Shown: positions 47,002 to 49,931 of the stretch, one piece after another
Position numbering within the stretch: position 1 is the stretch's first letter
Layout of the letters: the number at the start of each line of letters is the position of its first letter
NCBI RefSeq assembly: GCF_000344685.1
Contig: NW_006920424.1
Location: forward strand, 14,607 to 64,537
Length of the DNA stretch: 49,931 bases
Direction of reading: 5' to 3'
Source: Gloeophyllum trabeum ATCC 11539
Taxonomy: Eukaryota > Basidiomycota > Agaricomycetes > Gloeophyllales > Gloeophyllaceae
Translations under genes and position numbers: made by a program
The notes under the pieces: model-generated
Told to the model about the DNA's origin: nothing
The model's database searches: none
The model's input: only the letters and a program-made list of their open reading frames with translations

Positions 47002-48412
47002 ATGGTAAACAACTTGAACGTCCCGGCCGACAGCGCAGAACACCGCGATCCGCCCGCGCTCATCCAGTCCAAGATCCAGGCGCTGGCGCTGCTCATCCGC
47101 GGGGCGCAGCGCGTCGTCGTGTACACCGGCGCGGGCATATCCACCTCGTACCTTCGCTCTCCTTCTTCCCTCCTTCTCGTTGCTGAGTACACGGAGCAGT
47201 GCAGGCATCCCCGACTTCTGCGGCCCGCAGGGCGTGTGGACGCGCCAGGAGGAGGGCATCGACGCGCGTGTGGCGATCCCCGACACGACTAGCCCGACGC
47301 CGGCACACATGGCGCTCGTTCGCTTGGTCGAGCTCGGCAAGGTCTCTCTTGTCGTCTCCCAGGTACGCCACGTCCTTCCTCCAGCGAGAGCCAAGCGTCA
47401 CAGGGTCCCCGTTGTGCAGAACATGGACGGCCTGCACCTCCGCTCGGGCATCCCGCCCGCGCGCCTCGCGGAGCTGCACGGGAACAGGAACGTCGAGGTG
47501 TGCACGCTGTGCGGGATGGGGTATTTTCGTCGGTTCAGTTGTCGTTCCGAGGCAAAGGATCATCAGGTGCGCTCCCCCTCCCCGCCTTCCTTTCCTTCGC
47601 CCAGCACCCCTCCCGGCGCGCAGACTGATGAGCAGGCACAGACAGGCAGGAGGTGCGACGTGTGCGCGGGCCCGCTGCGCGACAGCATCGTCCAATTCGG
47701 GGAATCCCTCCCGCACGACGCGTGGGCGCGCAGCGTGGAGGAGAGCAAGCGCGCGGACTTGGGGATTGTACTAGGTGCGTTCTCGTCTCGTTCCGTTCCG
47801 TCCTTCCCCTCCCTCCCCCCTTCCCCGCGCCGCGACATCAGCTCACATGCCCCAGGCTCCTCGCTGCTCGTCTCCCCCGCAAGCGACGTCCCCCTCGCCC
47901 TCGTACGCGCCGGCACGCCGCTCGCGATCGTCAACCTGCAGCGCACGCCCCTCGACGCCAGCGCCGCGCTCCGCCTCGGCGCGCCGACCGACGCGGTCAT
48001 GGCCGGCGTGCTGCGCGCGCTGGGGGAAGACGTGCCCGCGCCGCGCGATGTCAGCGCGGAGCTGGAGGAGCGGACGCGCCGGGCGGTGGGCCTGGCGGCG
48101 GCGCGGGCGGACGCACCCCACGACCCGGCCAAGTGTGCCTCCACGCGTCCCGGTCCCTGCACAGCGGCTGACTCGGACGGGCCCGATTTGTTCCTCGCGC
48201 GCCGCTGGCGCGGGCCTGCGCCGGTCGTGGCGCCGGGCGGAGGGGAGGAGTGGGCCGTCGAGAAGATCGTCGATGCGCGGCGCCGCGGCCGCGGATGGCA
48301 GTACCGTGTGCGCTGGGCCGGCTACGATGAGGACGACGACAGCTGGCTGCCGCGACGCGACCTCGAAGATACGAAGGCGTTGGACGACTGGCTCGCGGTG
48401 CATCCGCACTAA
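47002..48412 (+). CDS. Sirtuin fused to a C-terminal chromodomain
   Basis: Exons 47002-47147, 47200-47362, 47420-47566, 47642-47774 and 47856-48412 give 381 residues. The sirtuin core has Gly-Ala-Gly-Ile-Ser-Thr (43-48), Gln-Asn-Met-Asp-Gly-Leu-His, catalytic His123, and zinc Cys at 131, 134, 157 and 160. The usual Asp-Phe-Arg-Gly is Asp-Phe-Cys-Gly (Cys56, codon TGC 47219-47221). After the core and a helical linker, residues about 327-381 form a chromodomain (Glu-Trp-Ala-Val-Glu-Lys-Ile-Val-Asp...Tyr-Arg-Val-Arg-Trp-Ala-Gly-Tyr...Trp-Leu-Pro), with an aromatic cage Trp/Trp/Tyr. It could target deacylation to methylated H3. The linker lies in one open frame with the sirtuin's last segment, so the fusion does not depend on a guessed splice. 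The acceptor of intron 3 is ambiguous (47635 or 47641). Confidence 0.88.
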
Positions 48413-49931
48413 CTCGGACTCGACTCGAGACCGCCCCCCCCCCCCCCCGGCCATGCTCGATTTACATATCTGTCGGCGGAGGAGTGATTGCATATGACCA
48501 TGCGCCACCCGTCCGACACGATTTTTGTTCTTGTTACTCTTAGGCACTTCATTCTGACACCGGCACTCGCGCGTGCTTATAACTTAGCCGATGAGCTTCG
48601 AACGTGTCCCCCTCTGCAATACAGCGAAGCCCTGCGCTGGCCTTTGAGTGTTGTCCGGCTTGTACTTTTTGCCGGAGGAGGGGGACAGGACATGAGGGGT
48701 TGCTGGGGCGTGTGCTAATAACTTTACAGAATGTCACAGAACATAAGCGTGTCTGTATAACTGTTACCAGACAACCCGAATCTGCACGTCCACATGTACA
48801 GTATGCGGCTCCCATTGGGAGTAAGTACAGTGAACGCGTGACGTCACGCGCTTATTGCCGATGCTACGAGTAAACAGATGCACCATGACTAGTGACTACT
48901 AGTACCGACCAAGCACCCGTGCCAGACATCTAGCACAAACACACATGGCCAGCACCGACGAATAGGTCATACCAAGGGTTGGCCGGAAAAGGCGCCGCCG
49001 GAGGCGGCGCCAGGGTTTTTAGCGAGGGCTTCGCCCGAGGCGCCCAGGGTTTTCCGGCCATCGAACACCGGCGCAGAGGCTTCTCTCCGTTATCTCACCG
49101 GGACTGTTCGGTTCGCTCAGCCCTCGAGCAATAGGAAGACCTGCTGCAGCCTGCAGGCTTTATCACTGGTTCCTCTCCTCAAGTCCTACGGCGCTCTTCT
49201 GTCTTCGCGTGTTTTCGTTCACGCTGAGGTGGTCAGCTGCATGCATTAGCGATTCGTCGCCCAGGTCGGGTGTAGAGGCTGCAGAGTGGGTTCCCTGAAG
49301 TTGGTACTGGGGAGGCGCAACGCCCGGTTCCGGTGCGAGTTGATTTGTCAGCAGATTGTGGCTGAAAGGTGGTCGCAAGTATCCCCTCGTATTCTTGTGC
49401 ATTCCTCTGCTCCATTCTCACCTTATGCATGCATCAGCAATGTATATCACTATTGTAAACCAGAAAGAAGGGTATTCTACCATTACAGACTGTAGTAGAT
49501 ATAAACATGTCTGTCTCTTCTTATTCCTGAGCTGACCACCATCGGGATGAAATGATGGTCAATTTCACCGAGGTCGGCAAAGGAGTGCTTAGGGAAGTTA
49601 TGTATTGTCCTTAGAAACATTTGGAACATATCTATGTGCACACCAGTGGGTGCATTCCCTATCCTTGATACAGATGAGCTTGATTTCCAGGAAGCACAAA
49701 TCTGTGTAATTAATGGACAAAGCAAGTACTGGATCACAGCTGTAAAAGGCTGAATATATATCTCATGTACTATGTTGATTTTACAATTCTAACATAGGGG
49801 AAGGGACCTGCTTCTGCTGCGGCAGGAGAGCCCGGACAGTGACCAGGATATTTGGTGTGACACTTTTTGCGATGGTGTCACAGCTTGTCACGTCCGCGAC
49901 GCGTTCGGACGCGTCGTTAATTGCTCTTTAC
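48413..49931. other. Intergenic right end with structured repeats
   Basis: No gene recognised. It holds a run of about 16 C (48,433-48,448), a second GCGTGACGTCACGC palindrome (TGACGTCA at 48839-48846), the GC-rich folded structure at 48981-49059, and two small palindromes near the end (TGTGACAC/GTGTCACA near 49,856-49,882; CGACGCG 49897-49903 with CGCGTCG 49910-49916). Confidence 0.5.
48981..49059. repeat. GC-rich three-way-junction foldback
   Basis: Outer arms GGCCGGAAAA (48981-48990) and TTTTCCGGCC (49050-49059) pair perfectly. Inside are two further hairpins: GGCGCCGCC (48991-48999) with GGCGGCGCC (49003-49011), and GGGC (49026-49029) with GCCC (49033-49036). Confidence 0.8.

Follow-up and report, generated by a model that had tools for sequence, protein, structure and literature searches.

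A single gene on the forward strand of the Gloeophyllum trabeum ATCC 11539 genome joins a sirtuin (SIR2) to a chromodomain, and the fusion is confirmed on the DNA (47,002-48,412 of the window, i.e., of the whole stretch of 49,931 nucleotides that was analyzed). G. trabeum is an agaricomycete basidiomycete, a wood-rotting mushroom of brown-rot habit. We posit that the gene encodes a sirtuin that is addressed to chromatin by a reader of chromovirus origin and that has impaired deacetylation, and we put the probability of this reading at about 0.6; the confidence figures attached to it and to its rivals overlap. Both the fusion and the cysteine (Cys56) that sets its sirtuin part apart are known from this one strain.

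Spliced over five exons with GT-AG ends on all four introns (Table 1), the gene yields a protein identical to P0002, the database model of the fusion in this strain (381 aa; PF02146 and PF00385), which matches the gene over its whole length. For intron 3, an acceptor at 47,623, which would give 387 aa, was dropped in favor of 47,641 because the homologs P0003 and P0004 lack the six added residues. In the spliced protein, Pfam scores SIR2 at an E of 3.4e-28 and Chromo at an E of 2.2e-9 (37.5 bits against a cut-off of 25.1), and the last exon holds the sirtuin end and the chromodomain in the same frame. A sequence-only reading of this DNA had placed both domains in one polypeptide, with the sirtuin end Leu-Gly-Ser-Ser-Leu in frame with the chromodomain, and this is borne out by the continuous frame of exon 5, which starts with Gly-Ser-Ser-Leu, intron 4 splitting the sequence after Leu-Gly. 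The same reading began the fusion at 47,002; this is the correct start of the gene, but only exon 5 makes up the fusion in the strict sense. Genome-wide profile searches listed 20 SIR2 pieces at E up to 1, which we count as ten loci (a lower bound), and Chromo at at least 18 places; among these matches, themselves lower bounds, the two domains lie inside one gene only here.

Could the fusion nonetheless be an artifact of the gene model, with separate sirtuin and chromodomain transcripts or a tail that is spliced out? Splice-like strings do occur inside exon 5, three of them resembling weak donors (47,990-48,300) and four resembling acceptors (48,030-48,412), but the frame is continuous and the annotation of the same assembly gives the identical fusion; we consider an artifact quite improbable, and the sequence predicts translation of the fusion as modeled. 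The open frame as such was discounted as evidence, since in 2000 dinucleotide shuffles of 48,032-48,409, the frame stayed open over 126 codons 263 times. Elsewhere in the window, a GC-rich stretch at 48,981-49,059 is bounded by GGCCGGAAAA and the reverse complement TTTTCCGGCC; a DNA search of the genome matched only its own place.

Table 1. Features of the fusion gene and its neighbor, in window coordinates
Feature	Position	Strand	Content
Exon 1	47,002-47,147	+	Start codon, NAD-binding GAGIST motif; spliced model equals P0002
Exon 2	47,200-47,362	+	GIPDFC-GPQGVW motif to VVSQ
Exon 3	47,420-47,566	+	NMDGLH, catalytic HG (His123), zinc CxxC (Cys131, Cys134); invariant columns, codons checked
Exon 4	47,642-47,774	+	Second zinc CxxC (Cys157, Cys160); database acceptor 47,641
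Exon 5	47,856-48,412	+	End of sirtuin fold, linker, putatively retrotransposon-derived tail with chromodomain, stop
Cys56, codon TGC	47,219-47,221	+	Near-invariant Arg elsewhere (SIRT6 Arg65 site)
Chromodomain PF00385	48,251-48,391	+	Residues 329-375
Putative captured segment	48,173-48,409	+	pol linker of about 20 residues and chromodomain; left edge approximate
Inverted paralog P0006	45,301-46,420	-	275 aa, SIRT6-type sirtuin, GIPDFR intact, no chromodomain

The sirtuin part is of class IV (SIRT6/7 type), as the sequence-only reading had held: it has the SIR2 fold, and the best PDB matches of the gene product are SIRT6 (191 bits) and SIRT7 (172.5), with the next at 122.3 (best 60 of 122 matches). 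SIRT6 (PDB 8i2b, 3zg6, and others) shares with the fusion protein the whole sirtuin fold, the zinc cysteines, the catalytic His, and the order of the motifs; it differs in that the best matches cover the sirtuin part only and in that its Arg65 is Cys in the fusion protein. The best 120 of 2897 matches to the fusion protein were aligned; in this alignment, His123 and the zinc residues Cys131, 134, 157, and 160 occupy invariant columns, and P0002 keeps all of them, together with Asn104 and Asp106. The Arg of GIPDFR, found in 118 of the 119 other aligned homologs (all but P0053, whose sequence is disturbed near the motif), is Cys56 in P0002, its sole departure among columns in which at least 100 rows are filled and conservation is at least 90%. 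The codon differs by one base from that of the paralog (TGC versus CGC). In the PDB match, Cys56 aligns with the GIPDFR Arg of SIRT6, which we take to be Arg65, as the spacing to the Ser56 and Gly60 of the published work fits.

What would such a change do to catalysis? The R65A mutant of SIRT6 is reported to be devoid of deacetylase activity (PMC3812651, PMC5115890, PMC7498349) and to show only mono-ADP-ribosyltransferase activity (PMC7498349); these data concern Ala, not Cys, in mammalian SIRT6. P0002 lacks the GIPDFR Arg of class IV sirtuins, a lack that weakens any claim of an active deacylase and that leaves the fold assignment untouched. The earlier suggestion of a self-targeting histone deacylase becomes doubtful, because the equivalent of Arg65 is Cys and R65A SIRT6 is reported to be without deacetylase activity. 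An ordinary deacylase of this kind, which tolerates the Cys and removes acyl groups from histones near H3K9me, would be in keeping with the retained His123, Asn104, Asp106, and four zinc cysteines and with a confidently modeled fold (AlphaFold2 on the 120-protein alignment gives residues 11-280 at 84-99 pLDDT by blocks). Given the reported loss in R65A and the Cys at the only well-filled, at least 90% conserved column from which P0002 departs, we regard this explanation as unlikely.

Judged by descent from transposable elements, the chromodomain comes out as retrotransposon derived, an origin that the sequence-only reading had missed and that would explain how the fusion arose. A protein search of the same genome with the 58-residue tail found 19 places. 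At four other loci, the matching chromodomain is 64-74% identical and lies in what we take to be the pol-type C terminus of a Ty3/gypsy (Tf2-type) chromovirus; a fifth locus is a broken copy in two pieces (63% and 61% identical to the tail), and 12 of the 19 places reach 29-42%. Two of the four nearest copies end open frames of 254 and 445 aa, both of which carry SH3_Tf2-1 and Chromo, and one of these frames adds a sub-threshold integrase zinc-binding match. Upstream of the third copy (C15:536 kb), SH3_Tf2-1 lies in a different frame, with two weak zinc-binding pieces beyond it, and the fourth, of which the downstream part was analyzed, sits in a 1684-aa open frame. SH3_Tf2-1 therefore lies upstream of the chromodomain at three of the four nearest loci and is absent at the sirtuin locus. 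What identifies the four copies as pol is their frame layout together with SH3_Tf2-1, Chromo, and weak matches to H2C2; the rve core model matched none of them (35 matches in the genome, a lower bound), a reason for caution about their anatomy. By eye, the 445-aa frame resembles an integrase. The locus around the C15:536 kb copy (L026, C15:534915-538082), a fragment of this chromovirus family, shares its contig with the sirtuin gene at a distance of about 0.47 Mb, with stops in frame upstream of its 86-aa chromodomain piece and an SH3_Tf2-1 match in a different frame.

Similarity at the protein level continues upstream of the chromodomain, through the pol linker (DLF..R....P.P.V); in tests against three copies, 0, 2, and 8 of 5000 shuffles aligned as well as the linker itself. 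DNA similarity to the copies is confined to about 48,246-48,394. The sirtuin locus has no match to SH3_Tf2-1 (17 found in the genome), Integrase_H2C2 (20), or rve (35), counts that are lower bounds with the best candidates scored. Given the shared linker, the absent integrase and SH3 domains, and the limited DNA similarity, we infer that some 240 bp were captured, with the end near the pol stop. A whole retrotransposon at the locus was rejected on the same domain searches and because DNA similarity stops at 48,394. A single 15-nt direct-repeat pair near the locus is probably due to chance. Compared with the known integrase C terminus of chromoviruses (Ty3/gypsy, Tf2-type, MAGGY-like), the gene has the chromodomain and linker in common with copies in its own genome, and it differs in that the reader is joined to a host enzyme, with DNA similarity restricted to the chromodomain. 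Exon shuffling from a host HP1-like or chromo gene would account for the HP1-like cage and fold, but the nearest matches in the genome are the pol-type C termini, the 12 other places fall far below their identity, and the pol linker is common to gene and copies; we hold a host origin to be highly improbable. A protein search with the tail alone returned only P0002 itself among 68 candidates (about 210-667 aa, sharing exact words); because long pol proteins were excluded and could not appear, this says nothing of the abundance of the element.

Within the gene, the captured segment has host-like codon usage. Its GC3 is 0.84 (56 codons), whereas the four copies have values of 0.55, 0.63, 0.54, and 0.51; GC3 is 0.88 over codons 1-260 of the fusion gene and 0.56-0.89 in the exons of the paralog. 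Where third positions differ, an A/T of the copy faces a G/C of the gene more often than the converse (21:5, 17:5, 22:5, and 15:1), and positions 1 and 2 lean the same way more weakly (10:4, 13:4, 11:4, and 9:4), so the amelioration may be partly regional. The segment contains no stop or frameshift. In a codon model written for the purpose, omega on the gene branch is 0.04-0.05, and fixing it at 1 costs 2 delta lnL of 6.1, 4.8, and 5.3 (3.1, 2.4, and 2.7 log units) on three topologies; the fits cover 56 codons (45 for one copy) with one start each and synonymous sites near saturation, and the gene branch includes time spent as a retrotransposon before capture. By NG86, gene and copies differ by dN of 0.18-0.27 and dS of 1.6 to saturated. 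Changes private to the gene number seven nonsynonymous to three synonymous, which at face value speaks against constraint; third positions make up 12 of the 93 agreeing sites in this count, which was given no weight because it is biased toward conserved positions. As a whole, the comparison lends modest support to protein-level constraint on the captured segment.

These data bear on a second alternative, namely, that the gene is decaying: it would have lost the key Arg by a CpG transition (CGC to TGC) and run into an old retrotransposon fragment, so that the chromodomain is useless read-through and the paralog does the work. The codon is indeed one base from that of the paralog, and an open frame is not rare by chance, as the shuffles attest. 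However, P0002 departs at no other column that is at least 90% conserved, all four introns retain GT-AG ends, the chromodomain and its cage are intact, GC3 is host-like despite near-saturated synonymous sites, an omega of 1 on the gene branch is disfavored, and the fusion copy is nearer than the paralog to four of five outgroups. We judge decay to be somewhat unlikely.

Is the captured chromodomain fit to read histones? The complete aromatic cage that had been noticed from the sequence is present, with W329 (48,251), W350 (48,314), and Y353 (48,323) at the cage positions given in PMC3350952. With PF00385 and all three positions filled, the domain is a classical chromodomain (HP1/class-I chromovirus), and its PDB relatives are MPP8, CDY, and HP1. 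The chromodomain of MAGGY, which belongs to the same broad type, is reported to bind H3K9me2/3 (PMC3350952), and by analogy with MAGGY and HP1, the captured domain would be expected to bind H3K9me2/3 as well. AlphaFold2 gives the linker (289-326) low confidence and the chromodomain strands and final helix about 56-71 per block; the tail modeled alone has a mean pLDDT of 66.7. Foldseek matches to this tail model (best 50 of 616) are nearly all chromodomains, with MPP8 first and none below an E of 0.001. Ranked third is an HP1 Y24W variant bound to trimethyl-lysine H3, and the fusion gene has Trp at that cage position.

The paralog P0006 lies 0.6 kb from the fusion gene and is 52.9% identical to it over the sirtuin part; one source names it a "zinc finger protein," though it is a SIR2 protein. 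Among the five outgroups compared, four are closer to the fusion copy than to P0006 (for P0003, 57.6 versus 54.9%). In a tree of 40 of the 120 alignment rows, with P0002 cut to its first 280 residues, P0002, P0006, Gonapodya, and P0003 cluster with support of 91/85, and the first three cluster at 93/92, below the starred level and on long branches. The two sirtuins of the window are placed with early-diverging fungi and apart from the SIRT7-like group of ascomycetes, again with support below the starred level. No other basidiomycete appears among the named matches listed (best 120 of 2897; best 120 of 6931), a distribution that may reflect either patchy retention with loss in other Agaricomycetes or horizontal transfer. 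The fusion appears only in G. trabeum among the matches listed in both searches, where no other Gloeophyllum is named; sister species may be absent from the database. The architecture had been thought undescribed for a class IV sirtuin, and the searches agree: none of the other 119 proteins of the alignment carries Chromo at E up to 0.001, leaving P0002 as the 1 in 120, PF00385 occurs only in P0002 among the paralog-search matches (best 120 of 6931), and the matches listed include no second SIR2-Chromo protein.

Several near relatives carry a different module at this end. SAP-type C-terminal matches occur in four of the six scanned (P0004, P0005, P0007, and P0008, at about residues 287-338), above the cut-off in P0007 and below it in the other three, though PF22968 is annotated for those three. 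These SIRT6-like proteins, which include P0007 of Paraphysoderma and P0008 of Quaeritorhiza (early fungi), resemble the fusion protein in having a small C-terminal module and differ in that it consists of SAP-like helices, not a chromodomain, and in that their Arg is intact. P0003 and P0009 gave no SAP-type Pfam match in the same scan, so a tail swap is not sure. By eye, the P0003 tail resembles that of P0004.

In the mechanism that we propose, the 3' end of a SIRT6-type gene would have been extended by some 240 bp of chromovirus pol (Ty3/gypsy, Tf2-type). This piece would comprise the linker that follows the SH3-like domain of the integrase, then the chromodomain and the pol end. The fused protein would most likely dock on H3K9-methylated chromatin via the captured reader, because the donor chromodomain has the full cage of the H3K9me2/3-reading type, and would present the sirtuin fold there. 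Because several near relatives have an SAP-like tail at the same position, the capture may have replaced an SAP-like DNA-binding tail, exchanging one chromatin tether for another. Poor or no deacetylation would be expected, because the Arg65 equivalent is Cys while the equivalents of Ser56, Gly60, His133, and the zinc cysteines are kept. The protein may be a sirtuin with weak or ADP-ribosylating activity, or it may serve on chromatin as a scaffold that binds NAD/substrate; the unfused P0006 keeps the ordinary deacylase residues. Targeting, tail replacement, and altered chemistry are what we infer from these comparisons. We speculate further, and regard it as distinctly unlikely, that this is a natural separation-of-function sirtuin, given a heterochromatin address by a retrotransposon, with deacetylation lost through the Arg-to-Cys change and NAD chemistry kept; it would then be an ADP-ribosyltransferase or NAD sensor directed to heterochromatin, and it might act on the chromatin of the donor retrotransposons.

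Fusions of a reader to an enzyme are familiar, in that Clr4/SUV39 and the chromomethylases each combine a chromodomain and a chromatin enzyme in one chain; those enzymes are methyltransferases, in contrast to the sirtuin here. Clr4, SUV39H1, and a plant DNA methyltransferase are among the chromodomain-search matches. A screen of 1237 fungal genomes reports more than 1000 candidate Chromo host-transposable element fusions, discusses SHREC, and notes that Chromo is not exclusively derived from transposable elements (PMC10799480). Fusions of the SHREC/Mit1 type join a host protein to a transposable element-type chromodomain, as here, and the words sirtuin, Sir2, and Gloeophyllum have no occurrence in the main text of that paper (PMC10799480). 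Among open PMC papers, judged by titles and the starts of abstracts, none on a SIR2-chromodomain fusion or a G. trabeum sirtuin was found; the fusion is visible in databases via its Pfam domains, under a generic name. Chromodomain fusions of host and transposable element sequences are an already described class in fungi.

If the fusion is translated, a chromatin enzyme would have acquired a preformed histone reader from a mobile element, possibly at the cost of an SAP-like tail. The gene would also be a natural variant at the very residue whose mutation serves experimentally to uncouple the deacetylation of SIRT6 from its ADP-ribosylation. The unfused, Arg-bearing paralog 0.6 kb away offers an internal control and, because it has the normal residue in the same genome, would make targeting and chemistry separable in tests.
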